Both the position numbers and the translations under genes were made by a program. A stretch of DNA of 64,000 bases from Pseudomonas fluorescens NCIMB 11764. GTDB lineage: Bacteria; Pseudomonadota; Gammaproteobacteria; Pseudomonadales; Pseudomonadaceae. Below are positions 39,776 through 63,435 of the stretch, in pieces. Each line of letters starts with the position of its first letter. Within the stretch, counting starts at the first letter, position 1. The stretch spans positions 5,476,001 to 5,540,000 of the forward strand of contig NZ_CP010945.1 of assembly GCF_000293885.2 (NCBI RefSeq). Direction: 5' to 3'. The notes beneath the pieces are model-generated. The model had not been told where the DNA came from, made no database searches, and worked only from the letters and a program-made list of their open reading frames with translations.

Positions 39776-40972
39776 TCAACCAATTGCACCCGGCACCACT
39801 ATAGCGCCCTGCTGGTATTCACGGGGCGTACAGCCAAACTCGCGACGAAACACCGTGTGCAGATACTGTGCGGATTTGAATCCGCACGAGCGGGCAACGT
39901 CCGCAATCGCTGTCTCGGTATTTTCCAACTCGCTCGTCGCCGCCGCCAGTTTGAAATGCAGAATCTCATCATGCACGCTGCAGCCCCTCACAGTGCGAAA
40001 GTGCGACTCCAGCGATGAGCGCGAGACCCCGACATAAGCCGCCACTTGCGCGGTCTTGATGCCCTGGCAGGCATATTGGCGGATAAACAGCAGCGCTTGC
40101 ATGACGTAGGGGTTGCCCAACGGTTGGTGCAAACTCGACACCTGCACGTTGATCGCATCCGGCGGGATCAGGATGTGCGTGCCGGTGGACGGCATGCCGT
40201 GCAGCATCTGGTGGAGCAGTTGCGCGGCAGTGCGGCCCATGGTTTCGGTGCCCTGAATGACTGAGCTCAAGGGGACCCGGGTCAGGCTGCGTGTCAGCGG
40301 ATCGTTGTCGATGCCGATCAACGCTACCTGTTCCGGTACGGCGATTCCGGCGGTCAGGCAGGCCTGCAGCAACTGCCTTGCACGGGCGTCACTGACGGCG
40401 ATGATACCTATGGGTTTAGGCAGGCTTTGCAGCCAGGCGATCAGTTGTTCGACGGCGCTGTCCCAGAGAGGTGCACTGGTGCCCATGCCGCGGTAGACCT
40501 CGGCATGCAAGCCGTCACGTTGCATCAGCCGTCGAAAGGCTTTTTCCCGCTCCTGCGCCCAACGATTGGCCTGCGCTTCAGGCAGGCTGAAGCAGGCAAA
40601 ACGCTGCAGCCCCGCCTCGATCAAGTGCGCATAAGCCAGGGTAATCAATGCGTTATTGTCGGTGGCGACATAAGGGATTCCTTTCGGGTAGGCGCGCTCA
40701 TCCTGATAAGAACCACCCACCGCGACCACCGGCAACTTGATGTCGGCCAGCGCCTCGCCAATCAGCGGATCGTCGAAGTCGGCAATGATCCCGTCACCCT
40801 GCCAGCGCTCGATCCCTTTCAACCGGCAGAGAAAGTCCTCTTCCAGGAACAGGTCCCAGGACGCGCGGGTGCTGCTCAGGTAGTTGCCGATGCCACTGAT
40901 GATGCCCCGGTCATAGATCTTGCTACCGTTGAACAACAGTGCGATGCGGTGAACAGGCGGTACTGTTTTCAT
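39776..40972 (-). CDS. xylR: xylose operon regulator XylR
   Basis: 398 residues. An N-terminal LacI/ribose-binding-like sensor ([15 protein letters not shown], then W-D-L-F-L-E-E-D-F and [10 protein letters not shown]) is fused to a C-terminal AraC helix-turn-helix (about 290-390; S-R-S-S-L-E-S-H-F and [21 protein letters not shown]). This is the E. coli XylR architecture, which binds D-xylose and activates xyl genes. The ATG at 40972 matches that N-terminus; a GTG 16 codons upstream is in frame. It diverges from xylA. Confidence 0.9.
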
Positions 40973-41054
40973 TTTTTTCAGGCTTGTTCCGGGGCCCCTT
41001 CTCACGGAGGCGGTTTGCACAGACTAGGCGCGCAGACCACGAATCTCAATACGC

Positions 41055-41081
41055 AAAATCGCACCCAGTGTTGGTGATTTT
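41055..41081. promoter_or_regulatory. inverted repeat in the xylR/xylA divergent promoter
   Basis: AAAATC-G-CACC and GGTG-ATTTT arms flank 7 nt, an imperfect dyad 68 nt before xylA. It may be a XylR site or a local hairpin; no consensus was available to check. Confidence 0.3.
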
Positions 41082-41148
41082 CATAATCAGCAGGCATGGC
41101 GCCGTTGCTAGTATCGAGACACCGCCAAGAACAACAAGGACATTGCCA

Positions 41149-42465
41149 ATGCTGTACTTCCCCGATGTCGACAAGATTCGCTACGAAGGCCCTGCCAGCG
41201 ATTCTGCCCTCGCCTTCCGTCACTACGACGCCGACAAAATCATCCTCGGCAAACCCATGCGCGAACACCTGCGCATGGCCGCCTGTTATTGGCACACCTT
41301 TGTCTGGCCGGGCTCCGATGTGTTCGGTGCAGGTACTTTCAAGCGCCCGTGGCAACACGCCGGCGACCCGATGGAGCTGGCGATTGGCAAGGCGGAAGCC
41401 GCGTTCGAGTTCTTCTCCAAACTGGGTTTAGACTATTACTGCTTCCACGACACGGATGTCGCCCCGGAAGGCAATTCGCTGAAGGACTACCGCAACCACT
41501 TCGCGCAAATGATTGATCATCTGGAGCGACATCAGGAGGAAAGCGGGATCAAGCTGCTTTGGGGCACCGCCAACTGCTTCAGCAATCCGCGTTTTGCCGC
41601 CGGCGCCGCCAGCAACCCGGACCCCGAAGTGTTTGCCTTCGCCGCTGCCCAGGTCTTCAGCGCCATGAACGCGACCCAACGCCTGAAAGGGTCCAACTAC
41701 GTGTTGTGGGGCGGTCGCGAAGGCTACGAAACCCTGCTCAATACCGACTTGAAACGTGAACGCGAACAACTGGGCCGCTTCATGCGCATGGTGGTCGAGC
41801 ACAAGTACAAGATCGGTTTCAAAGGTGACCTGCTGATCGAACCCAAGCCGCAGGAGCCGACCAAGCACCAATACGATTACGACAGCGCCACCGTGTTTGG
41901 CTTTCTCCAGCAGTTCGGCCTGGAAAAGGAAATCAAGGTCAACATCGAAGCCAACCACGCGACCCTGGCCGGTCATAGCTTTCATCACGAGATTGCGACC
42001 GCCATCTCGCTGGGGATTTTCGGCAGCATCGACGCCAACCGCGGTGATCCGCAGAACGGCTGGGACACCGATCAGTTCCCCAACAGCGTCGAAGAAATGA
42101 CCCTGGCCACCTATGAAATCCTCAAGGCCGGCGGGTTTAAGAATGGCGGGTACAACTTCGACTCCAAGGTTCGCCGCCAGAGCCTCGGTGAGATCGATCT
42201 GTTCCATGGTCACGTCGGCGCAATGGATGTCCTCGCCCTGTCCCTGGAGCGGGCAGCCGCCATGGTGCAGAACGATCAGCTTCAACTGCTCAAGGATCAA
42301 CGCTACGCCGGCTGGCAGCAGCCGTTCGGGCAGGCGGTGCTGACGGGTGAGTTCAACCTCCAGTCATTGGCCGAACATGCCTTCGCCAACGAACTGAATC
42401 CGCAGGCCGTCAGCGGCAGGCAGGAGATGCTCGAAAACGTCGTCAACCGGTTCATCTATCGCTGA
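41149..42465 (+). CDS. xylA: xylose isomerase
   Basis: 438 residues, class II xylose isomerase. The catalytic pair is in C-F-H-D-T-D (His100, Asp103), with [11 protein letters not shown] (metal-ligand Glu), [12 protein letters not shown] and [17 protein letters not shown] motifs. It converts D-xylose to D-xylulose. The ATG at 41149 follows AAGGA; the frame is open 210 nt upstream into the xylR start region. It is followed by xylFGH on the same strand. No xylulokinase gene is in the window. Confidence 0.96.
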
Positions 42466-42613
42466 TCGCCCCGGCGTCTGCGGACGCATTAACGCTGTGA
42501 CATTCGCACGACAAATCTGTGTCCGCGGCGTCTGCCGATTCTCTACAGTTCTACCAGCCCGAGACTCATCGTCAGGCAGTGTCTTTCAAACAAAAACAAA
42601 AGGACGCACCACT

Positions 42614-43615
42614 ATGAAGAATGTGAAACGCGCGCTACTGGCCAGCGCCCTGGCGCTGCTGTCGCTACCGGTGATGGCCGATGCTGCCCACCCGAAAATC
42701 GGTTTCTCCATTGATGATCTGCGGCTGGAACGCTGGTCGCGTGACCGCGATTACTTCGTCGCGGCGGCGGAGAAAATGGACGCCAAGGTCTTTGTACAGT
42801 CGGCCGATGCCAACGAGCAAAAGCAAATTTCGCAAATCGAAAATCTCATTTCCCGTGGCGTCGATGTGATCGTCATCGTGCCCTTCAACGCCACGGTCCT
42901 GACCAATGTAGTGGCCGAAGCGAAGAAAGCCGGGATCAAAGTCGTGTCCTATGACCGCCTGATACTCAACGCGGATGTCGACGCCTACATTTCCTTCGAT
43001 AACGAAAAGGTCGGCGAGATGCAGGCCAGCGGCGTGCTGCACGCAGCGCCCAAGGGCAATTACTTCCTGCTCGGTGGTGCGCCTACCGACAACAACGCAA
43101 AAGTCCTGCGCGAAGGTCAGATGAAAGTGCTGCAACCGGCCATCGACAAGGGGGATATCAAGATCGTAGGCCAACAATGGGTGAAGGAATGGAACCCGAC
43201 CGAAGCGCTGAGCATTGTTGAAAACGCCTTGACCCGCAACAACAACAAAATCGACGGCATCGTCGCTTCCAACGACGCCACGGCAGGTGGCGCCATCCAG
43301 GCATTGGCCTCTCAGCAACTGGCCGGCAAGGTGCCGATTTCGGGGCAGGACGCAGACCTCGCAGCGGTCAAGCGAGTGATCTCCGGCACGCAAACCATGA
43401 CCGTGTACAAACCGCTCAAACTCATCGCCTCCGAAGCCGCCAAGCTCTCGGTGCAACTGGCGCGTAACGAGAAACCCGCCTACAGCTCGCAATACGACAA
43501 CGGCAGCAAAAAAGTCGACACCATCCTGCTCACCCCGACTCCGTTGACCAAGGACAACATCGACTTGCTGGAACAGGACGGGTTTTACACCAAGGCGCAG
43601 ATTGCCGGGCAGTGA
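42614..43615 (+). CDS. xylF: D-xylose ABC transporter substrate-binding protein
   Basis: 333 residues with a signal peptide (1-22, V-M-A-D-A) and the ribose-type binding fold: I-G-F-S-I-D-D-L-R-L-E-R-W-S-R-D-R-D near the N-terminus as in XylF, V-Q-S-A-D-A-N-E-Q-K-Q-I-S-Q-I-E and the sugar-binding hinge around G-Q-D-A-D-L-A-A-V. The ATG at 42614 follows AAGGA. It precedes xylG with an intervening REP-like hairpin, which fits the usual need for more binding protein than ATPase. Confidence 0.94.
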   Translation: MKNVKRALLASALALLSLPVMADAAHPKIGFSIDDLRLERWSRDRDYFVAAAEKMDAKVFVQSADANEQKQISQIENLISRGVDVIVIVPFNATVLTNVVAEAKKAGIKVVSYDRLILNADVDAYISFDNEKVGEMQASGVLHAAPKGNYFLLGGAPTDNNAKVLREGQMKVLQPAIDKGDIKIVGQQWVKEWNPTEALSIVENALTRNNNKIDGIVASNDATAGGAIQALASQQLAGKVPISGQDADLAAVKRVISGTQTMTVYKPLKLIASEAAKLSVQLARNEKPAYSSQYDNGSKKVDTILLTPTPLTKDNIDLLEQDGFYTKAQIAGQ

Positions 43616-43637
43616 TCATCGCCCCGTAATGCCACCT

Positions 43638-43659
43638 GCAGGAGCGAACTTGCTCCTGC
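43638..43659 (+). repeat. REP-like hairpin between xylF and xylG
   Basis: GCAGGAGC-GAACTT-GCTCCTGC, 8-bp perfect stem, the common Pseudomonas REP core. It lies 23 nt after xylF's stop. Confidence 0.7.
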
Positions 43660-43697
43660 GGGACCGGCCTCGTACCTGCCGCTTATGAGTCTCTGCC

Positions 43698-45254
43698 ATG
43701 TCCGACTATCTGCTGCAAATGAACGGTATCGTCAAAACCTTCGGCGGTGTCACAGCGCTCAATGGCATCGACATCAAGGTTAAGCCGGGGGAATGCGTCG
43801 GGTTGTGCGGCGAGAACGGCGCAGGCAAATCCACGCTGATGAAGATCCTTTCCGCGGTCTACCCCCATGGCACCTGGGACGGTGAAATCCTCTGGGACGG
43901 TCAACCACTCAAGGCGCAATCGATCAGCGAAACGGAAGCCGCGGGCATCGTCATCATTCACCAGGAACTGACCCTGGTTCCCGACCTGTCGGTGGCCGAG
44001 AACATTTTCATGGGCCATGAACTAACGCTGCCCGGTGGACGGATGAATTACCCGGCGATGATCCACCGCGCCGAAGCCCTGATGCGTGAATTGAAAGTGC
44101 CGGACATGAACGTATCGCTGCCGGTTTCGCAGTACGGCGGCGGCTATCAGCAACTGGTGGAAATCGCCAAGGCACTGAACAAGCACGCGCGCCTACTGAT
44201 CCTTGACGAGCCTTCATCGGCCCTGACCCGTTCGGAAATCGAGGTGCTGCTGGACATCATCCGCGACCTCAAGGCCAAGGGTGTTGCCTGTGTCTACATC
44301 TCCCACAAGCTCGATGAAGTGGCCGCCGTGTGCGACACCATTTCGGTGATCCGCGATGGCAAACACATCGCCACGACTGCCATGGTGGACATGGATATTC
44401 CACAGATCATCACCCAGATGGTCGGACGGGAAATGAGCAACCTCTACCCCACCGAACCACACGATATTGGCGAGGTGATTTTCGAGGCCCGCCACATCAC
44501 CTGCTACGACGTCGACAACCCCCAGCGCAAACGAGTCGACGATATTTCCTTCAGCCTCAAACGCGGGGAAATCCTCGGCATCGCCGGACTGGTCGGCGCA
44601 GGCCGCACCGAACTGGTGACAGCGCTGTTCGGCGCCTACCCCGGCCGCCAGGAAGGCGAAGTCTGGCTGGACGGCCAACTCATCGACACCCGCACGCCGC
44701 TCAAGTCAATCCGTGCTGGCCTGTGCCTGGTGCCCGAAGACCGCAAGCGCCAGGGCATCATTCCAGACCTGGGCGTCGGCCAGAACATCACCCTGGCCGT
44801 GCTGGACAGCTACTCGAAACTGACCCGTATCGATGCCGAAGCCGAACTGGGCAGCATCGATCGAGAAATTTCACGCCTGCACCTCAAGACCGCGAGCCCG
44901 TTCCTGCCAATCATCAGTCTGTCCGGCGGCAATCAACAAAAAGCCGTATTGGCGAAGATGCTACTGACCAAGCCCCGGGTGCTGATTCTCGATGAGCCCA
45001 CCCGAGGTGTGGATGTCGGCGCCAAGTACGAGATCTACAAGCTGATGGGGGCGCTGGCGGCCGAAGGCGTGTCGATCATCATGGTGTCGTCAGAGCTGGC
45101 CGAAGTGCTCGGCGTTTCCGACCGCGTTCTTGTGATTGGCGAAGGCCAGTTGCGGGGTGACTTCATCAACCACGGACTCACCCAGGAACAGCTGCTCGCC
45201 GCCGCACTCAGCCAGCCTGATGGCCATAACAATAATGATCGGAAATCCGCGTAA
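43698..45254 (+). CDS. xylG: xylose ABC transporter ATP-binding protein
   Basis: 518 residues with two ABC domains, as in sugar importers of the CUT2 class. Walker A of domain 1 is [12 protein letters not shown] signature-like Y-G-G-G-Y-Q-Q; Walker [13 protein letters not shown]. Domain 2 has degenerate Walker [10 protein letters not shown], intact signature L-S-G-G-N-Q-Q and Walker [13 protein letters not shown]. The stop codon abuts the xylH start. The ribosome site is weak. Confidence 0.94.
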
Positions 45255-46391
45255 ATGAACCAGGTCAAACAGCTCTTCACTCGCTACAAGATGCTCGCGC
45301 TGGTGTTTGCCGTGGCGTTTATCTGGCTGTACTTCAGTTGGCAGACCGAGGGCGGATTCCTGACACCGCGCAACCTTTCCAACCTGCTGCGCCAGATGTC
45401 CATTACCGGGATTCTCGCCTGCGGCATGGTGCTGGTCATCATCAGCGGAGAGATCGATTTGTCGGTTGGCTCATTGCTGGGCCTGCTCGGAGGCGTCGCA
45501 GCTATTCTCGACGTGGTCTACCACGTACCGTTGCTGGCGAACCTGGGCCTTGTGGCCCTGTGCGGGCTGCTGATCGGCCTCGCCAACGGCTACATGGCCG
45601 CCTACCTGCGTATTCCGTCATTCATCGTCGGGCTGGGAGGCATGCTGGCTTTCCGCGGCATTTTGCTGGGGATTACCGGCGGCACGACCATCGCCCCGGT
45701 ATCGCCGGAACTCGTCTACATCGGTCAGGGTTATTTGCCCCACATAATCGGCACGGGCCTGGGCGTTCTGCTGTTCGCACTGACGTTGTTCCTGACTTGG
45801 AAACAACGACGCAATCGCGCCCTTCATGGCCTTGCGGCACATTCACTGGTGCGTGACGTCGTGCGTGTGCTGTTGATCGGCGCGGTGCTAGCCGGATTCG
45901 TCCAGACCCTCAACAGCTATGACGGCATTCCCGTGCCGGTCCTGCTTCTGCTGGTTCTGCTGGGCGGTTTCAGCTACGTGACCAGCCAGACCGTGTTCGG
46001 CCGGCGCGTATATTCCGTGGGCAGCAACATGGAAGCGACACGTCTGTCCGGTATCAATGTGCAGGCCGTGAAGCTGTGGATTTTCGGAATCATGGGCGTC
46101 ATGTGCGCCCTCGCCGGCGTGGTCAACACCGCTCGCCTGGCCGCCGGTTCACCCTCGGCCGGAAGCATGGGCGAACTCGACGCCATCGCCGCCTGCTTCA
46201 TCGGCGGCACCTCCATGCGCGGCGGGTCCGGCACCGTTTACGGCGCCCTCCTCGGCGCACTGGTCATTACCAGCCTGGACAACGGCATGTCCATGCTCGA
46301 CGTCGACAGTTACTGGCAGATGATCGTCAAGGGCAGCATTCTGGTGTTGGCCGTGTGGGTGGATGTGAGCACTCGGACTGGGCGACGTTGA
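45255..46391 (+). CDS. xylH: xylose ABC transporter permease
   Basis: 378 residues, about 10-11 membrane segments, CUT2 permease of the ribose/xylose type (I-S-G-E-I-D-L-S-V-G-S-L-L-G, G-G-M-L-A-F-R-G-I-L-L-G, A-C-F-I-G-G-T-S-M-R-G-G-S-G-T-V). It starts directly after the xylG stop, so translation is coupled. It is last in the xylAFGH group; no terminator was recognised immediately downstream. Confidence 0.94.
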   Translation: MNQVKQLFTRYKMLALVFAVAFIWLYFSWQTEGGFLTPRNLSNLLRQMSITGILACGMVLVIISGEIDLSVGSLLGLLGGVAAILDVVYHVPLLANLGLVALCGLLIGLANGYMAAYLRIPSFIVGLGGMLAFRGILLGITGGTTIAPVSPELVYIGQGYLPHIIGTGLGVLLFALTLFLTWKQRRNRALHGLAAHSLVRDVVRVLLIGAVLAGFVQTLNSYDGIPVPVLLLLVLLGGFSYVTSQTVFGRRVYSVGSNMEATRLSGINVQAVKLWIFGIMGVMCALAGVVNTARLAAGSPSAGSMGELDAIAACFIGGTSMRGGSGTVYGALLGALVITSLDNGMSMLDVDSYWQMIVKGSILVLAVWVDVSTRTGRR

Positions 46392-53600: not shown

Positions 53601-54554
53601 TCACGCTTCTGGATAGTTGCCAGCAAAATAAGGAACCACGTACTCACCCAGCTCCTGAACAACCTCGTGCGCAGGGCGGCGACCATATTTGAGATTCAAG
53701 CCGACATGGTTGACCCCTATCTCTCTCAACGTTTGCAGGTAATGGATCAGGAAACGATGGCCTGACCTGAATCCGAGATGAATAGGCGTGGCTGCTTCTT
53801 CCGGATCTGGCGAGAGATCAACATAAAGTGACTGCGAGAATGGCTTGAAACCTTGAGTCAACGACCGCCATTTTTTTATCGTCACTGCCTGTTGCACCAC
53901 GTCCTGCGGATAGTAGAGCCAACCGTCGGCATGATTGGCGATCCACTCCAGCGATTGACGCGAGTGTCCCGTAACCATAACAGGGATGGCGCCCAGTAGA
54001 GGCTTGGGTAGCAGGTCTGCGACGGAAAGTTCTACCCTAGACGTGGAGATCCTTGGCGACTCTTCGCTCCATACACGGCGCATCACCGTCAATGCTTCCT
54101 GAAACAATTCCTGGCGTTTTTCGAGAGAGGCGTTGAAGGCCGAGAACTCGGTTGGCCGGTCCCCTGTCGCAAGACCAAGCACGAGGCGCTGTCCCGACAG
54201 TCTGTCTACCGAAGCTGCTGCCTTGGCGAGATGCAAGGGATGACGCAAGGTCGAAACGATGCTGCCCGTCGCGAGCGCGATACGGGTCGTCTGCGCCGCC
54301 ACATAGCCCATGAATACCCATGGGTCATAAATGTGGCCCACATCACCGAACGAAGGAACATTCAGAGGAACATCCCTGAAATACACGGCCGAAAATCCGT
54401 AGCGTTCCGCCATTTGTGCGGTACTGATCTGTCGCGCTAAATCCATCTCCGGGATAGCCCCTGCGTAGGATTCAATCGCGAAGTAAAGCCCAAGAGTCAG
54501 GTGCCCCTCGCGGTACATGGCCGAGTATCCGCGGTGATCTTTGAAGTCATGCAT
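53601..54554 (-). CDS. LLM-class flavin-dependent oxidoreductase (BA3436-type)
   Basis: 317 residues of the bacterial-luciferase-like (F420/FMN-dependent) TIM-barrel family. The sequence G-H-L-T-L-G-L-Y-F-A-I-E-S-Y, Y-F-R-D-V-P-L, S-F-G-D-V-G-x-I-Y-D-P-W-V and G-D-R-P-T-E-F matches the 'luciferase-type oxidoreductase, BA3436 family'. It is probably an FMNH2/O2-dependent monooxygenase; no flavin reductase is adjacent. The start at 54554 is not backed by a strong ribosome site. Two 17-bp TetR-type palindromes lie upstream (54629-54675), linking it to the GcvP-like cluster. Confidence 0.85.
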   Translation of the reverse strand: MHDFKDHRGYSAMYREGHLTLGLYFAIESYAGAIPEMDLARQISTAQMAERYGFSAVYFRDVPLNVPSFGDVGHIYDPWVFMGYVAAQTTRIALATGSIVSTLRHPLHLAKAAASVDRLSGQRLVLGLATGDRPTEFSAFNASLEKRQELFQEALTVMRRVWSEESPRISTSRVELSVADLLPKPLLGAIPVMVTGHSRQSLEWIANHADGWLYYPQDVVQQAVTIKKWRSLTQGFKPFSQSLYVDLSPDPEEAATPIHLGFRSGHRFLIHYLQTLREIGVNHVGLNLKYGRRPAHEVVQELGEYVVPYFAGNYPEA

Positions 54555-54628
54555 GTTTGACGATTGATCCAAGTGAAGAAGTGCCGCATGCATCATCCTG
54601 GCCAAGCCTGGTTGGGCAGAAGCTTGCT

Positions 54629-54675
54629 ACATACGCAATGTATGCAGAGCAAAATACAACATACAACCCGTATGT
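54629..54675. promoter_or_regulatory. pair of 17-bp TetR-type operators before the LLM gene
   Basis: Site A (54629-54645) ACATACG-CAA-TGTATGC and site B (54659-54675) ACATACA-ACC-CGTATGT start exactly 30 bp apart. They match the consensus ACATACGnnnCGTATGT seen also at 54797-54845 and 61806-61875. Confidence 0.8.
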
Positions 54676-54796: not shown

Positions 54797-54845
54797 ACAT
54801 GCGTAGCGTATGTTAAATAGCATTACTAACATACGCCACGTATGA
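54797..54845. promoter_or_regulatory. pair of 17-bp TetR-type operators before the SnoaL-like gene
   Basis: Site C (54797-54813) ACATGCG-TAG-CGTATGT and site D (54829-54845) ACATACG-CCA-CGTATGA, starts 32 bp apart. Site D ends 80 nt before the SnoaL-like start codon. The rest of 54555-54924 has no gene I can support. Confidence 0.8.
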
Positions 54846-54924: not shown

Positions 54925-55362
54925 ATGATCGACAGTCTCGTTGGGTACCAGTCGCCCTCCATGATTTCCGACACCGCGACCCGGGAGTCACTCAATGCCT
55001 TTATCACGAAAGTCCTGCAGGGTTTTTCCACGCCTAGCTCGGACGTCGCCAAGTACTTCACCGATCCGGACGTCGCGATCGCCGGCTCAGGCCTGGACGA
55101 GTTCTTCATGGGGACCGAAGCGGTACAAAATGGCGTGACGTGGGTGACCACCCTGAACATCCGATGGGAACCACGACTGGTGGTGTCCTGGATACGCGGT
55201 GACATTGCCTGGGCGCAGATCCGAATCGACGGCCACACGTTTGAAAACGCTGAGCCAACGGTCGTCCAGTACGTTACGACCGGGGTATTCCAGCGCAAGG
55301 GCGACGGCTGGATCTGGTTGTACTGGGGTGGCAGCGAACCGCAAAAAGTAGCTCGGCTGTAA
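54925..55362 (+). CDS. SnoaL/NTF2-like protein
   Basis: 145 residues with the cone-shaped alpha+beta barrel pattern of the SnoaL-like/NTF2 superfamily: an N-terminal helix, F-T-D-P-D-V-A-I-A-G-S-G, then strands W-E-P-R-L-V-V-S-W-I-R-G-D-I-A-W-A-Q and G-D-G-W-I-W-L-Y-W-G-G. The ATG follows AGGGAG. Members include cyclases, isomerases and dehydratases, and many are of unknown function. Divergent from the LLM oxidoreductase gene, with two pairs of shared palindromes between, so both probably respond to the same TetR protein. Confidence 0.75.
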   Translation: MIDSLVGYQSPSMISDTATRESLNAFITKVLQGFSTPSSDVAKYFTDPDVAIAGSGLDEFFMGTEAVQNGVTWVTTLNIRWEPRLVVSWIRGDIAWAQIRIDGHTFENAEPTVVQYVTTGVFQRKGDGWIWLYWGGSEPQKVARL

Positions 55363-55815: not shown

Positions 55816-55835
55816 GGCACTCTTTTCAGAGTGCC
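55816..55835 (-). terminator. hairpin enclosing the acyl-CoA synthetase stop codon
   Basis: On the minus strand GGCACTCT-GAAA-AGAGTGCC: a perfect 8-bp stem closed by a GAAA tetraloop. The TGA stop codon of the synthetase gene overlaps the loop. No T run follows, so it may protect or pause rather than terminate. Confidence 0.6.
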
Positions 55836-57448
55836 TTGGCCCAATCGCGCAACAAGTACTTCTGGATCTTGCCTGTCGATGTTTTCGGCAACTCGATGAA
55901 CACCACGGTTTTCGGCAATTTGAAGCCCGCCAGATGTTCACGACAGAACAGGATGATATCGGCTTCCCGGGTGTTCTGATAATCGACTTTGAGCTTGATG
56001 AAGGCGCAAGGAGTTTCGCCCCACTTTTCGTCCGGACGGGCGACCACTGCGGCCTCCAGTACTGCCGGGTGACGATAGAGAACGTCTTCGACCTCGATGG
56101 TGGAAATGTTCTCGCCGCCCGAGATAATGATGTCCTTTAGGCGATCCTTGATTTCGACATAACCGTCAGGGTGACGTACCGCCAGGTCGCCGGTATGGAA
56201 CCAGCCGCCTTCGAACGCTTCACTTGTCGCTTCGGTGTTCTTCAAATAGCCCTTCATGATCGTGTTCCCGCGCATGAAGATTTCGCCGACACTTGTGCCG
56301 TCCAAGGGGACCGGTTCAAGGGTTTTCGGATCGGCAACCATCAGCCCTTCCAGGGTCGGATAGCGCACGCCCTGGCGCGACTTGATCCTTGCGCGCTCAT
56401 TCAGCGGTTGCTCGTCCCACTGGTCATGCCAGGCGCAAACGGTCACCGGGCCGTAAACCTCAGTCAGCCCATAAACGTGTGTGACCTTGATGCCCATCTC
56501 CTCGACCGCACCGATGACTTTGGCCGGCGGTGCGGCGCCCGCCAGCATGGCGTCGACCGGATGATCGAAGGCAGCCTTGGACGAGTCTGGCAGATTGACC
56601 AACGCATTGAGGACAATCGGCGCACCACACAAATGGCTGACCCGATGTTGATGAATCAAAGTGAGGATTTTCTGCGGATCGACCCGACGCAGGAATACAT
56701 GAGTCCCAGCCAACGCAGTCACCGTCCATGGATAGCACCAGCCGTTGCAATGAAACATCGGCAAGGTCCACAAATACACCGGGTGGTGCCCCATGGCCCA
56801 AGTCATCTGATTTCCCAGTGAGTTGAGATACGCCCCGCGGTGGTGGTAAATGACCCCCTTGGGATTCCCCGTGGTGCCGGATGTGTAGTTGAGCGAGATG
56901 GCTTGCCATTCATCCTCAGGCCATTGCCAGGCGAACTGTGGATCACCTTCAGCGAGGAAGGCTTCATAGTCCAGCGTGCTAACCGCGCTGCCTTCGCCGT
57001 ACTCCGGGTCGTCCACATCGACAACCAGTGGCGGATGAGAGAGCAGGCTCAAGGCTTCACGAATAACAGCGTGGAACTCCCGATCGGTGATCAACACCTT
57101 GGCTTCGCCGTGCTCAAGCATGAAGGCAATAGCTTGCGCATCCAGCCGCACGTTCAGGGTATTGAGTACAGCGCCGATCATCGGCACGCCAAAGTGGGCT
57201 TCGAGCATGGCCGGGATGTTGGGGAGCATCACTGCCACGGTATCGCCCTTGCCGATACCCCTCTGGCTTAGTGCGCCAGCCAGGCGCCGGCAACGTTCAT
57301 AGGTCTCTTGCCAGTTGCGGCGAATGGCGCCGTGGATCACGGCGGGATACTCACCGTAGACAGAGGCTGTGCGCTCGATGAAGCTCAGCGGAGAAAGGGC
57401 GATATGGTTGACTGCCGAGGGCGCCAGGCCCGTTTCGAAAATCGACAT
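55826..57448 (-). CDS. acyl-CoA synthetase (AMP-dependent ligase)
   Basis: 540 residues of the ANL superfamily. The P-loop is Y-T-S-G-T-T-G-N-P-K-G-V (about 181-192), then Y-G-L-T-E-V-Y-G-P, W-F-H-T-G-D-L-A and the C-terminal catalytic Lys in S-T-G-K-I-Q-K. Sequence and size resemble AlkK/DmdB-type medium-chain or methylthiopropionyl-CoA ligases. Residues P-M-F-H-C-N-G-W-C lie in the acyl pocket. It would activate a short or medium carboxylate to its CoA thioester in the cytoplasm. It is in line with the GcvP-like genes but separated from them by a terminator (57534-57562), so it may have its own promoter. Confidence 0.88.
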   Translation of the reverse strand: MSIFETGLAPSAVNHIALSPLSFIERTASVYGEYPAVIHGAIRRNWQETYERCRRLAGALSQRGIGKGDTVAVMLPNIPAMLEAHFGVPMIGAVLNTLNVRLDAQAIAFMLEHGEAKVLITDREFHAVIREALSLLSHPPLVVDVDDPEYGEGSAVSTLDYEAFLAEGDPQFAWQWPEDEWQAISLNYTSGTTGNPKGVIYHHRGAYLNSLGNQMTWAMGHHPVYLWTLPMFHCNGWCYPWTVTALAGTHVFLRRVDPQKILTLIHQHRVSHLCGAPIVLNALVNLPDSSKAAFDHPVDAMLAGAAPPAKVIGAVEEMGIKVTHVYGLTEVYGPVTVCAWHDQWDEQPLNERARIKSRQGVRYPTLEGLMVADPKTLEPVPLDGTSVGEIFMRGNTIMKGYLKNTEATSEAFEGGWFHTGDLAVRHPDGYVEIKDRLKDIIISGGENISTIEVEDVLYRHPAVLEAAVVARPDEKWGETPCAFIKLKVDYQNTREADIILFCREHLAGFKLPKTVVFIELPKTSTGKIQKYLLRDWAKAL

Positions 57449-57581: not shown

Positions 57582-59138
57582 TCAAGCAGTCTGTTGCTTG
57601 GTTTTGCGCAGGTGCGCACGCCAGGTCATGGCCCAATGAGCCGGGTCTTCCAGCGGTGCGCTCTTCAACCGGTGAATAGCCTGGTTGTGCGGCGAGGTCT
57701 TGACGATCACCGGATTCGAGTAAGCCTCGTCGGATATGTGCGCAAGCACCGCAATCCAGGTGTCCAGCGCCTCTTTACCGTACATCTCGCCTGCCTCGGG
57801 GGTGAACGGCTCCGGTACCAGCCACGGGTGGTGACTGCTCCACATCGGATCAATACCGAAATCGCTCATGCGGTTTTGCACGTCATGGACGTCGACTCCG
57901 GTTTCCTCCTTGAGTTGCTCAAGGCTGTAGCGCGTCATCTCCATCCGGTGGCTTTTAGCCTCAGGGTGTGAACGAGTCACGCCACGAATCGCCAGCAAGC
58001 CTTTTTCCATGTAGTTGTTGGCCAGTACCGAAATGTCCGACGCCTCAGCCATCCCTTTTGCGCCCATGGCGCGGGACCAAGCGTAGGCCTTGAGGATGAC
58101 CGGAACGTTGCCCCAGAACTCGCGGATCTTGCCGGCACTCTGCGGACGGTCGTAATCCAGGCTGTATCGTTCACCGTCAAAGGCCACCACCGGTGCCGGC
58201 AGGAACGGTGCAAGTTCTGCCGAACAACCATAGGCGCCCACTGCCGGGCCTCCCACTCCACTTTTCGGTGCGCCGAACGTCTTGTGGAGCATGAACATGC
58301 ACGCGTCGAAACCGAGCTCTCGCGCACGAATCTTAGTCATCGCGCCGTTGAAGTTTGCATGGTCGTAGAAGCACAGACCGCCCGCTTCATGCACCACGCG
58401 CACCCACTCACGAATTTCCGGGTTGTACACGCCCATGTCGTCGGGGTTGTTCACCATCAGCGCTGCCGTGCGGTTGGACACGGCGGCCTTCAGGGATTCG
58501 AGCGACGGGTAACCGTTCTCTTCGATCATCAGGGTGATGACCTTGAACCCGGCGGCAGCTGCCGTCGCGGCGCTGCTGGGGTGCGTCTGGATGGTGGTGA
58601 TGATCTCGTCACGCTGCTCCAGTTCGCCACGGGAAGCATGGTAGGCACGGGTCACCGCGCAACTGGTGTACGCCGCGTCAGCACCGCCGCCTGCCTGGAA
58701 GATGAACTGGTCCATCCCGGACAACTCGCGCAGAATCGTGTCCATGCCATGCACGACTTCGAGCGCGCCTTGCAGGGTGTCCTCGTCCTGATGTGGATGC
58801 ACGTGAGTAATTTCGGGGCGCCATGCCATCGCCTCGTTGATCTGCGCGTTGTACTTCATGGTGCAGGTGCCGAACAGGCTGATGTTCATCATGCCCAGGG
58901 TCTGCTGCGACAGGCGCAAGTAGTGATACAACACCTCGGGCTCGGACAGTTCCGGCAACGCCGGTTTGCTGGAGCGCCGCATGTTCGCGGGAATCAAATC
59001 GACGGCGCTGCCGACAGCTGCTTGCACGTCAGCCTCAACGTCGGAAAAGATCACACCGCGACGGCCGGGATAGCCCATCTCCAGAATGACGGGTTCGCTC
59101 CAGACGGGAGCATGGTATTCCTTGAGTGGAGTGCTCAT
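57582..59138 (-). CDS. divergent glycine decarboxylase-like PLP subunit (GcvPB family)
   Basis: 518 residues. The PLP lysine is Lys286 in M-L-H-K-T-F, and F-G-T-C-T-M-K-Y-N-A-Q-I-N-E (90-102) is family-like. Several active-site motifs differ from canonical GcvP: H-P-H-Q-D-E instead of H-P-F-x-P-E, Y-D-H-A-N instead of Y-D-G-A-N, and S-G-V-G-G-P-A-V-G instead of the glycine loop H-G-G-G-G-P-G. It would decarboxylate an amino acid other than glycine, or act without the normal lipoyl carrier. Its ATG overlaps the end of the GcvPA-like gene by 4 nt, so the two subunits are coupled. No gcvH or gcvT is nearby. Confidence 0.85.
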   Translation of the reverse strand: MSTPLKEYHAPVWSEPVILEMGYPGRRGVIFSDVEADVQAAVGSAVDLIPANMRRSSKPALPELSEPEVLYHYLRLSQQTLGMMNISLFGTCTMKYNAQINEAMAWRPEITHVHPHQDEDTLQGALEVVHGMDTILRELSGMDQFIFQAGGGADAAYTSCAVTRAYHASRGELEQRDEIITTIQTHPSSAATAAAAGFKVITLMIEENGYPSLESLKAAVSNRTAALMVNNPDDMGVYNPEIREWVRVVHEAGGLCFYDHANFNGAMTKIRARELGFDACMFMLHKTFGAPKSGVGGPAVGAYGCSAELAPFLPAPVVAFDGERYSLDYDRPQSAGKIREFWGNVPVILKAYAWSRAMGAKGMAEASDISVLANNYMEKGLLAIRGVTRSHPEAKSHRMEMTRYSLEQLKEETGVDVHDVQNRMSDFGIDPMWSSHHPWLVPEPFTPEAGEMYGKEALDTWIAVLAHISDEAYSNPVIVKTSPHNQAIHRLKSAPLEDPAHWAMTWRAHLRKTKQQTA

Positions 59139-60538
59139 TGTGCGATTACCTCTTTAAGTGCAGCAGTCAGGCGCTGAATATCGGCTTGTGTGTGAATCTC
59201 GGTGACGCAGTACAGGGCGCTGGCCCCAAGCGCCGGAAAGTCGTGAGTCAGATCTTTGCCGCCGAAGATTCCGAGCGCGAGCAACTGCTTGTTGATGTCC
59301 TTCACGCTCAGCCCGGTGGCGTCGAAATTCACCACGAACTCCTTGAAGAAACCAGAAGGGAATGTCACTGCCAGGCCCGGAACTTCACTCAGCAACTTCG
59401 CCGCGTAGTGAGCACGTTGCAGGATGAGATTGCCTACATCCTCGAAGCCCTTTGGTCCCATCATCGCCATGTAGACGGCATTGGCGATGGCCCACATGTA
59501 GACCGAATGACCGGTCCAGTCATTGCCCTTGTCACGCAAGCCGTAGGACGATTGTTCGAACAAGCTCAGGCCAAAACCATATTCGCCGGGCTTGGTGGTT
59601 TCGGCGATGCTGATGAACAGCGTCGGGTATTGGTGGGCGTACAGTTCTTCGTCGCGGGTTGCAATGAAGCCGCTGACCCCGCCACCACAGTTCATATGCA
59701 CGCCGAGCGGCTGAGTGGTACCCACCACGATGTCGGCGCCGAAATCAATCGGTGCGGCCAGCACGCCGAGGGAGATCGGATCGACCCCAACGATGACTTC
59801 GGCACCCGCTGCATGGGCAATGGCGGCGATTTCGGCCCCTTGCTGTTCGATCACACCGAAATAAGACGGTGTTTCGAAATAGACCGCAGCCGTTTGCGCA
59901 CCGATCGAGGCACGGAGGTGATCAATATCGAGCAAGCCGGTTTTCGGGTCAAAGTCGACGAGTCGCACGACGATGTGGCCCGGCATTTCCACGGGTTCGC
60001 AGTAGTTGCGGATGATGGAAAGCCGCTCAGGATCGATGGCACGGACCACCGCCACTTCGCTGCGCCCGGTAATTCGGGTTGCCATGCGAATGGCGTGACC
60101 CGCAGCGCAACCCCAGCTGCGCACCGGCAGGCCGACCAGATCCATGTTCAGCAGCTCGCCGAGCTGGCTGCAGAACTCGAACCAGGCTTGATTGCGACCG
60201 TGGTCGGAGCTCGGCTCACCAAACACCGAGGTCAGCCATTCATTACGGCGCACGACTTCGTCGCACGCTGCCGGAACGTGATGCTGCCAACAGCCGGCGC
60301 CCAGGAAGTTAAGGTTTTGCTCGCAGGTCTTGTTTTTCGACAACGTGCTGAGCAGATGCCGACGCAGCTCGCTCTCGTTGAGCGCCGGCGGCAAATCAAT
60401 CGGACGTTGCAGGCGGTGTTCATTGGGAATTTGCTGGAACAACTCCTCAATGCTGTCTACACCGATCGAGTCGAGCATCTCCTGTTTGAGTGCAGGAACA
60501 GAGTTCGCCATGTAGGGGTGGGCGACATGATTACTCAT
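59135..60538 (-). CDS. divergent glycine decarboxylase-like subunit (GcvPA family)
   Basis: 467 residues. The family start F-L-G-A-G-x-x-x-H-x-x-P-A (77-90) and P-S-Y-F-G-V-I-E (about 222) are retained. The canonical Y-T-P-Y-Q-P-E-I-S-Q-G is replaced by V-F-G-E-P-S-S-D-H-G-R-N-Q, Y-D-G by R-S-W-G, and S-F-G-G-P-x-L-G by N-C-G-G-G-V-S-G. These positions line the glycine and lipoyl-arm site in true P protein, so the substrate is probably different. The ATG follows GAGGAT. It lies 36 nt after the kinase-like gene and overlaps its partner subunit by 4 nt. Confidence 0.85.
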   Translation of the reverse strand: MSNHVAHPYMANSVPALKQEMLDSIGVDSIEELFQQIPNEHRLQRPIDLPPALNESELRRHLLSTLSKNKTCEQNLNFLGAGCWQHHVPAACDEVVRRNEWLTSVFGEPSSDHGRNQAWFEFCSQLGELLNMDLVGLPVRSWGCAAGHAIRMATRITGRSEVAVVRAIDPERLSIIRNYCEPVEMPGHIVVRLVDFDPKTGLLDIDHLRASIGAQTAAVYFETPSYFGVIEQQGAEIAAIAHAAGAEVIVGVDPISLGVLAAPIDFGADIVVGTTQPLGVHMNCGGGVSGFIATRDEELYAHQYPTLFISIAETTKPGEYGFGLSLFEQSSYGLRDKGNDWTGHSVYMWAIANAVYMAMMGPKGFEDVGNLILQRAHYAAKLLSEVPGLAVTFPSGFFKEFVVNFDATGLSVKDINKQLLALGIFGGKDLTHDFPALGASALYCVTEIHTQADIQRLTAALKEVIAQ

Positions 60539-60574: not shown

Positions 60575-61741
60575 TCAGGATCGAACCCTGAAGAAGACGG
60601 ACCGGTCAGGCCCTGTGTGCACGCGTATGTGGCCGCTGAGCATGGCATCGACTTCGGCGTCACCCGTGTCGACGCGCAAGCAGCCGGTATCGAGGGAAAG
60701 GAGCTTGTCCATCGAGGTGATCACGATGATGTGTTCGCGCCCTGCCCGGCGGATGACCTCGGCGCTGATCTGCTGGTTGCCACGGCCGAACAAGCTGCCG
60801 TGACCGCCCAGAACGCCAACGATGATGCGTGTCTCGTACCCTTCCATCAGACGGATCAACGCGTGTTCATTGAGGTCGGCACCCACCAGCGCACCGTCCA
60901 TGACCGCGTCTACGCCCAACAGCGTCGACGGCAGGCCGAGCTCGGTCATAATGCGTCGCGTGGTGGTGCCTGGCCCCAGCAGGTATAGGCAACCGGGTTT
61001 CATGTCCCTGACAACCTGTCGGGACACGGCGTCGAGCGCCATGTTTTCGTTGGCCAAGGAACCGGCCTTGGCGTTTTGCGTCAGGTGACGTTGGTGCGGG
61101 CTGCGGGCGTAGCCATACAGCCGCGCCGACACCTGATCGTTGCGCATGGCAGCCTCGTCGATGTCCATGACCTCGGCTTCGCGAAAGCGCACCGACGAGT
61201 CGCCGGCAACGAAGCGTGCCGCAAGATGTCCAGCGTTCTGCGGATTAGTGCCGAACACGGCGGAATACATCTTCACACCCGTAGGGATACCGAGGATCGG
61301 TACGCGATCACTGACCTTTTCCAGCACATCGCGCGCGGTGCCATCTCCGCCGGCGAACAAAAGCAGATCGACCGAGGCATGCGCCATGACGAGCGCGGCA
61401 TTTCGGGTGTCATCGGGCCGGCTCGCTCCCGGCGACGACGTATAGACGACAATCGGGTCGAGACCGGCGGCGCGCGCGACATCTTCGCCCAGCTCACCCG
61501 AGCCGGTGATCAGCCGGAATGGCGTCGTCGAAGCCGCCAGACGCTTGAGCGCGATCAAGGCCCGATCGCTTGAAACGGGTTGCGCACCGCGGCGCCTTGC
61601 TTCCTGCAAAACCTCGACACCGTCGGTGCCCTTTAGCCCCACGCGTCCGCCCATTCCGGCGACCGGGTTGAGGATAAATCCCAGGGTTTTCCCCTGACCT
61701 GCGGGGTGCAGTGAAATATCGGAATCGCGCTGTTCACGCAT
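60575..61741 (-). CDS. ATP-NAD kinase family protein (AcoX-like)
   Basis: 388 residues. The diacylglycerol/NAD-kinase fold motif G-G-D-G-T-A-R-D (near residue 115) and the N-terminal F-I-L-N-P-V-A-G-M-G-G-R-V-G-L-K-G-T-D are those of the COG3199 group that includes AcoX of acetoin operons. P-G-T-T-T-R-R-I and G-V-L-G-G-H-G-S-L-F-G-R-G-N-Q-Q follow. The start at 61741 has AGGAT; the frame is open to 62014 but would cross the operator region and overlap tetR. It is first in the operon with the GcvP-like genes. Whether it phosphorylates NAD or a pathway metabolite is unknown. Confidence 0.82.
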   Translation of the reverse strand: MREQRDSDISLHPAGQGKTLGFILNPVAGMGGRVGLKGTDGVEVLQEARRRGAQPVSSDRALIALKRLAASTTPFRLITGSGELGEDVARAAGLDPIVVYTSSPGASRPDDTRNAALVMAHASVDLLLFAGGDGTARDVLEKVSDRVPILGIPTGVKMYSAVFGTNPQNAGHLAARFVAGDSSVRFREAEVMDIDEAAMRNDQVSARLYGYARSPHQRHLTQNAKAGSLANENMALDAVSRQVVRDMKPGCLYLLGPGTTTRRIMTELGLPSTLLGVDAVMDGALVGADLNEHALIRLMEGYETRIIVGVLGGHGSLFGRGNQQISAEVIRRAGREHIIVITSMDKLLSLDTGCLRVDTGDAEVDAMLSGHIRVHTGPDRSVFFRVRS

Positions 61742-61805: not shown

Positions 61806-61875
61806 GCATACGCCTCGTATGTGATACACAATACGACATACGCGAAGTATGTCAACTTACATACGCAACGAATGT
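61806..61875. promoter_or_regulatory. three 17-bp TetR-type operators between kinase-like gene and tetR
   Basis: Site 1 (61806-61822) GCATACG-CCT-CGTATGT, site 2 (61836-61852) ACATACG-CGA-AGTATGT, site 3 (61859-61875) ACATACG-CAA-CGAATGT. Sites 1 and 2 start 30 bp apart, the same spacing as sites A and B near 54.6 kb. They fill the divergent promoter. Confidence 0.85.
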
Positions 61876-61901: not shown

Positions 61902-62486
61902 ATGGCGCAGAAGCGTGCGGACATGATTGCGGAGACTCGCGGCAAACTGATCAAGGCGGCGCGAGACGCATTTGCTGCGAAGGGATATGCGGAAAGTTCG
62001 ATGGACGATTTCACCGCTCAAGCGGGTCTGACCCGGGGTGCGCTGTACCATCACTTTGGCGACAAAAAGGGCTTGCTACAGGCCGTCATCGCCCAGATAG
62101 ATGGAGAAATGATGGAACGGTTGTCGGTCATTATCGAAGAGGCCAGCACAACCTGGGACGGCTTCATCGATGAGTCCATCGCCTACATCAAGATGTCCCT
62201 GGAACCTGAAATCCAGCGCATTCTCTTCCTCGACGGGCCAGCGGTACTGGGCGACCCGTCGCAATGGCCGAGCCAGAACGCGTGCATCCGAAGCACCCAA
62301 CGCAGCATTCAAAAGCTGATTGACGAAGGAACGATCCGCGTGGTCGACACCGAAGCGACGGCGCGCCTGATCATGGGTGCCCTGCTCGGCGCTTCCTTGT
62401 GGATTGCACATGCTGAGGATCCCCAGACCGCCTCTGAAAAAGCCGTCGAAAGTTTCCGGGCATTGGCGTCCGGATTGCTGCTGTAA
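61902..62486 (+). CDS. TetR-family repressor of the GcvP-like regulon
   Basis: 194 residues. N-terminal TetR domain: T-R-G-K-L-I-K-A-A-R-D-A-F-A-A-K-G-Y-A-E-S-S-M-D-D-F-T-A-Q-A-G with recognition helix T-R-G-A-L-Y-H-H-F-G-D-K-K-G-L (46-60); ligand domain after residue 60. The ATG follows GGAAC. Three palindromes lie directly upstream, and four more copies stand before the LLM and SnoaL genes, so it probably represses itself, the kinase/GcvP-like operon, and the LLM/SnoaL pair until an inducer binds. Confidence 0.9.
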   Translation: MAQKRADMIAETRGKLIKAARDAFAAKGYAESSMDDFTAQAGLTRGALYHHFGDKKGLLQAVIAQIDGEMMERLSVIIEEASTTWDGFIDESIAYIKMSLEPEIQRILFLDGPAVLGDPSQWPSQNACIRSTQRSIQKLIDEGTIRVVDTEATARLIMGALLGASLWIAHAEDPQTASEKAVESFRALASGLLL

Positions 62487-62517: not shown

Positions 62518-63435
62518 ATGCACAGGCAGACTCAACACTTCGACGAAATCATCGAACACGCCGCATCACTGGCGCACTGGTCGCAACACTACGACAAGCT
62601 GACGCCCGGTGCTTTTCACGGTGCCCTGCAGGACGTGCAACTGAACGGCGTCCGATTGTTCCGTGAAACCCTGAGCAGCGCTGTTGCCCAGCACACGCAC
62701 ACGCCTGCCCAGTGCATAAACCTGCTGCTGCCGGTGAACCTGCCGAGTCAGCCCGACGTGGCGCCGAATCGAAGCCTTCTTGCCGACGGGCTGAACTTCC
62801 TGCCCTACGACGACGATTTTTTCTTCGTCACACCGCCGGACACTGACTACATTGTGGTTTCGTTAAATTGCCAGGTGCTTGAACAACTGTTGGTCGCTGA
62901 GGACGTTGAACTGTTCTACCGTCGACCCAGGGGTTACGGGATGAAGCTGTGTGCCGGGGGTCTACAAGGTGCCCAGGTTGCCATGACCGGCCTGCTTGAT
63001 CAGCTCCAAACCCTTGACGACCTCAATGATCAAACCCTTCAGAACTGCGTACTCGATACGCTGCTCGACTTGCTGGAGCCGCAAAACCCGGTGCGCTTAC
63101 AGGGACTGGGCGGCAGCCACCAGCACATTGTCAAATACTGCCATGAGCGCGTGCTGCAAAGCCCTGCAGGGGAGTCGCTGTCGATCCTGGACTTGTGCAG
63201 GGAGTTGAAGATCCCCCGCCGCACGCTGCATTACAGCTTCGAAAAAATCGCCGGCAGCTCGCCTCTGACGTATCTGCGCGCCGTCCGTTTGAACGCCGCC
63301 CAGCGCAGCCTTACCGAGCACCCGGCCCCCAGCGTCGCCGATGTGGCGTACCGCTGGGGGTTCACCCATCAAAGCTATTTCAGCCAGGAGTACAAACGCC
63401 TGTTTGGCCATTCACCCTCGGCCCAACGGCGTTGA
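62518..63435 (+). CDS. AraC-family regulator (EutR-like)
   Basis: 305 residues. C-terminal double helix-turn-helix (about 215-300): S-I-L-D-L-C-R-E-L-K-I-P-R-R-T-L-H-Y-S-F and S-V-A-D-V-A-Y-R-W-G-F-T-H-Q-S-Y-F-S-Q-E-Y-K-R-L-F-G. The N-terminal part lacks a cupin-like AraC arm and resembles EutR-type activators. It lies 31 nt after tetR on the same strand and could be the activator of the cluster or of a neighbouring function. Its 3' end overlaps the convergent membrane-protein gene by 56 nt. Confidence 0.83.
   Translation: MHRQTQHFDEIIEHAASLAHWSQHYDKLTPGAFHGALQDVQLNGVRLFRETLSSAVAQHTHTPAQCINLLLPVNLPSQPDVAPNRSLLADGLNFLPYDDDFFFVTPPDTDYIVVSLNCQVLEQLLVAEDVELFYRRPRGYGMKLCAGGLQGAQVAMTGLLDQLQTLDDLNDQTLQNCVLDTLLDLLEPQNPVRLQGLGGSHQHIVKYCHERVLQSPAGESLSILDLCRELKIPRRTLHYSFEKIAGSSPLTYLRAVRLNAAQRSLTEHPAPSVADVAYRWGFTHQSYFSQEYKRLFGHSPSAQRR

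Follow-up and report, generated by a model that had tools for sequence, protein, structure and literature searches.

A GcvP-like subunit pair with a fixed AcoX-like kinase partner that may well act outside glycine cleavage

What reaction might be carried out by a two-subunit homologue of the glycine cleavage P-protein (GcvP) that is encoded beside a kinase rather than beside H- and T-proteins? The question is raised by a 64,000-nucleotide stretch of Pseudomonas fluorescens NCIMB 11764 (contig NZ_CP010945.1, positions 5,476,001 to 5,540,000; hereafter the window), which belongs to a 7.0 Mb genome assembled as one contig. A first-pass annotation of the window had described a pair of GcvP-like open reading frames (ORFs), and both are real: each is open at the coordinates in Table 1, with a mutual overlap of 4 bp. 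We consider it rather probable that the two products form a heteromeric pyridoxal phosphate (PLP) enzyme that functions outside glycine cleavage and makes up a single functional unit with the kinase, serving to break down some non-glycine amine or amino acid.

Relatives were collected in one pattern scan of 84,980 species genomes, which yielded 184 relative-encoding stretches. The 80 best of these were retained and, with the window, give the 81 loci compared here. Two groups of loci, first drawn from sequence identity and gene context, are likewise told apart by two features of GcvPB. Residue 71 is Tyr throughout group A (the window plus L064-L091, 29 of 29 loci) and Arg throughout group B (L092-L143, 52 of 52), and an inserted V295 is found in every group A locus but in no locus of group B.

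Both subunits pass the NCBIfam models for their canonical counterparts (GcvPB, 503 bits against a cut-off of 441; GcvPA, 445 bits against 364), and the best PDB match of each subunit is in 1wyt (chains A and B), the Thermus thermophilus P-protein. Eighty-three subfamily GcvPB rows were compared with 53 canonical sequences (38 two-subunit, 15 single-chain), a column being called canonical-invariant when conserved at 90% or more in both canonical groups. Among 119 such columns, 58 are kept and 61 fall below 90% in the subfamily, a loss far beyond chance. Residues K286, D259, H186, and A261, which we take to be the PLP lysine and its neighbors in the PLP site, are identical in all 83 rows, and the HKT of the PLP lysine motif is retained throughout, as had been claimed. 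The consistent changes are QGE to (D/E)AA at positions 154-156, G187P, S233D, T234D, E239N, H281M, N283M, H292K, P302A, Y354W, and H398R. The glycine-rich loop, described in the first-pass annotation as replaced, is altered in part (H292K, G299A, P302A) but keeps G294, G296, and G297. The supposed loss of an H-P-F segment had to be dropped as a distinguishing change: H114 and P115 are the same in both sets, and the third residue varies among the canonical rows themselves (Leu in 35 and Phe in 15 of the 53). Overall identity between subfamily and canonical two-subunit GcvPB rows is 28.5-39.2%. A structure model of the GcvPB-like subunit, built without its partner, is of middling confidence (pLDDT 71).

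The GcvPA-like subunit, for which 80 subfamily and 37 canonical rows were compared, does not hold 37 of 64 canonical-invariant columns. The YTPYQ motif is replaced, as first noticed in the window, by a (V/I)(W/F/Y)G-type stretch that is one residue shorter in 79 of the 80 rows, and the block REQHIRRxKATSNICT becomes QSSYGxRxxGxDWTGx-type, again in 79 rows; in each case the remaining row has a gap. A Y-D-G motif thought to be lost altogether fares differently at its two ends. Its Asp is Ser or Thr in 79 of 80 rows (the other is a gap), whereas its Tyr persists in 50 of the 51 rows from group B and is Arg in group A, to which the window belongs. In a study of the human P-protein, Y161 and Y164 are labelled as active-site residues and the interface with H-protein is given as a docking model (PMC7259800). 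Matched to the human protein, YTPYQ would correspond to Y161/Y164, and REQHIRRxKATSNICT to residues modelled at the H-protein interface. A Lys at the site of human K376 remains in 30 of the 80 GcvPA-like rows.

A FastTree phylogeny, computed on roughly every second subfamily row after leaving out L094, L104, and L137, recovers 46 subfamily sequences as a single clade (support 0.998, stem 0.90); the canonical sequences included, 26 two-subunit and 15 single-chain, all fall outside it. The check proposed in the first-pass annotation thus puts the subunits outside the canonical GcvPA/GcvPB clade.

The AcoX-like kinase, initially listed as one neighbor among several, does adjoin the pair but is more than that: it is the pair's fixed partner, found by tblastn in 79 of the 81 loci, both misses being contig ends. 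Candidate loci that seemed to lack GcvPA or the kinase proved mostly to be artefacts of ORF choice, tblastn finding these genes in 80 and 79 of the 81 loci, respectively. The name AcoX comes from the first-pass annotation; RefSeq labels are ATP-NAD kinase family protein or NAD(+)/NADH kinase. No acetoin dehydrogenase genes occur among the nine identified window proteins, the 80 relatives not having been searched by family for them. The GGDGT motif is invariant in 38 kinase rows, and no credible PDB relative was found by sequence. The protein matches Pfam NAD_kinase and, among the families listed, NAD kinase ties with diacylglycerol kinases for its best fold match. These matches, and the dehydrogenases that are frequent neighbors, would suit a cofactor kinase that converts NAD to NADP, or acts on some other metabolite, in the service of those dehydrogenases, with the PLP enzyme alone being catabolic. 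We judge such an arrangement unlikely: alignment with the genome's own NAD kinase is confined to 40 columns around GGDGT, diacylglycerol kinases fit the fold equally well, and the dehydrogenases vary while the kinase is constant.

Other Pseudomonas copies of the kinase, 37-40% identical to that of the window, are not next to a GcvP-like gene. Fifteen such loci (L186-L200; for example L196:55-384, beside the kinase homologue at 1501-2595) were inspected; the copy lies within 1.5 kb of pdxB, a gene of PLP biosynthesis, in eight, and beside another conserved gene in six. The latter gene presumably encodes the AlaA aminotransferase; a family search gave no match. These linkages are a possible clue to the kinase substrate.

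The neighborhood of a P-protein gene usually, though not obligatorily, includes gcvH and gcvT, and in 20 canonical control loci each was found nearby in 18. The clusters of the relatives, which the first-pass annotation had named as the place where these genes would count against its reading, show no GcvH in any of the 81 loci, the 64-kb window having been covered in full, and GcvT in a single locus, which is not the window. Of the 80 fetched loci, 56 have flanking sequence that reaches 10 kb in both directions. The sole GcvT match is distant, at 24% identity (L133:19215-20468, minus strand), and lies about 8 kb from the GcvPB-like gene. The statement that the pair has no H- or T-protein is therefore right for the neighborhood but not for the genome, which encodes two further, long GcvPs. 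In both cases a GcvH match lies no more than about 1 kb away, and there are GcvT matches elsewhere too.

The regulatory sequences connect additional genes to the pair. A TTGACAT box is common to the TetR/kinase intergenic regions of ten loci, the window counted, and palindromes of the form CATACGNNNCGTATG occur in most of these ten regions. An operator pattern was drawn from them by eye, so that its match there is partly circular, which is not true of its match between the LLM-class flavin oxidoreductase (LLM) and SnoaL-like genes or of its count across the genome. At no more than one mismatch the window has seven sites, confined to two intergenic regions: three between TetR and kinase genes and four between the LLM and SnoaL genes. 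Counted on both strands these are 14 matches, compared with 0.59 expected, and none of 100 shuffles reaches 14. The whole genome has 11 sites, 7 of them in the window; a reversed control pattern gives 2. Eleven TetR-bearing relatives contain 28 sites in 230 kb, as against 1 in the 1.29 Mb of 69 loci without TetR. In nine of the eleven a site adjoins the TetR gene, with two or more there in eight of these nine; none was found at this threshold in Cryobacterium (L077) and Cupriavidus (L078). L064-L066 have sites by SnoaL as well. We infer that the TetR protein binds the palindromic sites. In Acidovorax (L070), the genes for acyl-CoA synthetase, SnoaL, kinase, GcvPA, GcvPB, and LLM follow one another in that order on one strand, beside TetR. 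Because of the shared operator and this gene order, the LLM and synthetase very likely share a pathway with the pair in the window's group, which bears out the initial assignment there.

Two observations weigh against the view set out above. The operator contrast weakens when two mismatches are allowed (43 sites in 230 kb versus 42 in 1.29 Mb), and GcvH is encoded somewhere in the genome in 43 of 43 module-bearing genomes tested (of the 80 loci), so an H-protein could still act in trans. The pair might instead be a diverged isozyme of glycine decarboxylase, served by H and T proteins from other parts of the genome, which would agree with the latter, with the GcvT matches found elsewhere in this genome, and with the GcvPA/GcvPB names of the curated models. 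We nevertheless regard an isozyme as very unlikely, given the replacement of the docking block and YTPYQ in 79 of 80 rows, the locus counts for H and T against those in canonical loci, and the two long P proteins already present in this genome. Canonical GcvP hands its carbanion to an acceptor, and the newly conserved D234, R398, and K292 of GcvPB and D340/W341 of GcvPA could shape a site at which the decarboxylated fragment is still taken up, though by a small thiol, an aldehyde, or some different carrier in lipoate's place, but no carrier protein occurs among the identified recurrent neighbor families and we find this equally doubtful.

The best reading of the sequences is therefore of a putative PLP lyase or decarboxylase that is independent of H-protein and coupled to the kinase. 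Because the PLP residues are intact, formation of a PLP aldimine and breakage of a bond at C-alpha are expected; because the modelled H surface and YTPYQ are gone and no carrier gene lies nearby, protonation in place or elimination appears likelier than transfer to lipoate. The constancy of the kinase suggests phosphorylation before or after the PLP step. In such a pathway, an inducer of TetR would switch the regulon on, and the LLM flavoenzyme and SnoaL-like protein would act on the compound. The kinase would add phosphate to a hydroxyl group on either substrate or product. The PLP enzyme would form an external aldimine and break a C-alpha bond with loss of CO2, phosphate, or an aldehyde, the carbanion being protonated in place rather than handed to lipoate, and the acid product would be activated by the acyl-CoA synthetase. 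A more specific version, which we put forward tentatively, has the kinase act on the hydroxyl group of an amino alcohol or a beta-hydroxy amino acid, and its phosphorylated product then serve as the substrate for decarboxylation or elimination by the PLP enzyme.

Table 1. Positions of the module genes and candidate operator sites in the window.
Feature	Position	Strand	Remarks
LLM-class flavin oxidoreductase	53601-54605	-	TIGR03571; shares TetR operator
Four operator sites between LLM and SnoaL	54630-54644, 54660-54674, 54798-54812, 54830-54844		
SnoaL-like protein	54925-55362	+	Divergent from LLM; shares TetR operator
Acyl-CoA synthetase	55826-57448	-	NF006020; 133 bp downstream of GcvPB-like gene
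GcvPB-like PLP subunit, 518 aa	57582-59138	-	K286, H186, D259, A261 kept; many canonical-invariant residues replaced
GcvPA-like subunit, 467 aa	59135-60538	-	YTPYQ and modelled H-protein docking block replaced
AcoX-like / ATP-NAD kinase family protein, 388 aa from ATG	60575-61741	-	Pfam NAD_kinase, GGDGT
Three palindromic operator sites, TetR/kinase intergenic region	61807-61821, 61837-61851, 61860-61874		Around conserved TTGACAT box
TetR-family regulator	61902-62486	+	Divergent from kinase-led operon

The kinase, GcvPA-like, GcvPB-like, and acyl-CoA synthetase genes form a row on the minus strand, and the synthetase is probably on the same transcript as the GcvPB-like gene. Beside the TetR gene, at window positions 62518-63435, is a gene for an AraC-family regulator resembling EutR (104 bits, cut-off 319); it is not conserved with the module, occurring in 3 of 81 loci at E 1e-4 with the window counted. 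Positions 39776-46391 of the window hold an ordinary xylose operon of regulator, xylose isomerase, XylF, ABC ATPase, and permease, in which the isomerase and XylF were checked by family and the other members were read from the ORFs.

Gene contexts differ between the two groups. At E 1e-25, the 29 group A loci contain acyl-CoA synthetase in 13, TetR in 12, zinc alcohol dehydrogenase in 7, LLM in 5, SnoaL in 4, and APC permease and copper amine oxidase in 3 each. The 52 group B loci contain an FAD amino-acid-oxidase-like protein in 34, a 3-hydroxyacyl-CoA-dehydrogenase-like protein in 30, a dihydrodipicolinate synthase-family protein in 26, old yellow enzyme in 25, a subunit that we label opine-oxidase-like in 25, an amino-acid-binding protein in 22, class III aminotransferase in 18, acyl-CoA synthetase in 1, and LLM in 0. 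The LLM as a general partner of the pair is thus unsupported (5 of 29 and 0 of 52 loci), and at the looser E 1e-4 it is found in 11 of 81. Group A modules of Gemmobacter and Pseudomonas Irchel 3A7 are accompanied by a short-chain dehydrogenase/reductase (SDR), APC permease, copper amine oxidase, and acyl-CoA synthetase, the Gemmobacter oxidase having phenylethylamine oxidase as its closest PDB match; the Rhodococcus qingshengii module is found with SDRs, APC permease, acyl-CoA synthetase, and a deacylase. With the amino-acid ABC transporters and FAD oxidases of group B, these contexts point to amines or amino acids as substrates, which fits the pathway first suggested, and they differ enough that the substrates of groups A and B may not be the same. 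A copper amine oxidase gene is followed by one for a CtaG-like or cytochrome oxidase assembly protein at L066:3716-6595 (Pseudomonas) and L174:14898-17668 (a Gemmobacter plasmid); the latter protein is perhaps a copper-delivery helper for the oxidase.

The 80 kept loci span Proteobacteria, Actinobacteria, and Bacteroidota. Six Pseudomonas loci encode a GcvPB-like protein 91-97% identical to that of the window, and the figure is 83% for Streptomyces, 79-80% for Rhodococcus, and 77% for Pedobacter; these cross-phylum values, being far above the identities to canonical GcvPB, imply horizontal transfer of the module between phyla. The module is rare in Pseudomonas (3 of 59 same-genus genomes, the window's own counted) and at E 1e-100 is present on eight plasmid records, one typed as conjugative and one haloarchaeal (Natronosalvus halobius, with a 53% relative). 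On the seven plasmid records whose annotation was read, the relatives are labelled as glycine dehydrogenase subunits. The clade member on the Natronosalvus plasmid (L178:10493-13545) adjoins an M20 hydrolase gene and has no kinase match within 12 kb. An apparent natural GcvPA-GcvPB fusion in L113, a 978-aa ORF, was rejected, as the reading frame of GcvPB simply stays open across the GcvPA gene.

No description of the module was found in the open-licence literature searched, subscription papers and preprints lying outside that search. The module shares family, subunit split, adjacent genes, and PLP-site residues with the two-subunit P-protein of T. thermophilus. It departs from canonical P-protein in the replacement of YTPYQ, the docking block, QGE, ST(233-234), H281, N283, and H398 and in having a kinase in place of H and T. 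With the AcoX/ATP-NAD kinase family it has the Pfam NAD_kinase domains and GGDGT in common; it differs in linkage to a GcvP-like pair, the unlinked Pseudomonas copies being near pdxB in 8 of 15 loci. In PduX/CobD, a kinase makes threonine phosphate and a second enzyme decarboxylates it (PMC6249242). The likeness is one of logic, in that a kinase precedes a PLP enzyme whose substrate is a phosphorylated amino acid; membership is not claimed. Sphingosine kinase with sphingosine-1-phosphate lyase differs in that the PLP partner here is GcvP-like, and a lipid substrate is made less likely by the transporters for polar amino acids that many group B loci contain.

To our knowledge, GcvP is known only as an enzyme that depends on a lipoyl carrier, and we know of no settled function for AcoX-type kinases. 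If phosphorylation followed by cleavage is the true order, the GcvP family would gain a type of reaction new to it and an AcoX-type kinase its first defined role, in a module passed from phylum to phylum by horizontal transfer and hidden by the glycine dehydrogenase label. Since NCBI models name the proteins glycine dehydrogenase subunits, a surplus glycine cleavage system may be wrongly assigned to such genomes in metabolic models. The TetR operator offers a direct route to the inducer and hence to the substrate. Should a role outside glycine cleavage hold, AcoX-type kinases would gain a defined partner, and a large clade would show a core one-carbon enzyme re-used for catabolism, with its PLP site kept, its H-protein surface dropped, and a kinase gained.

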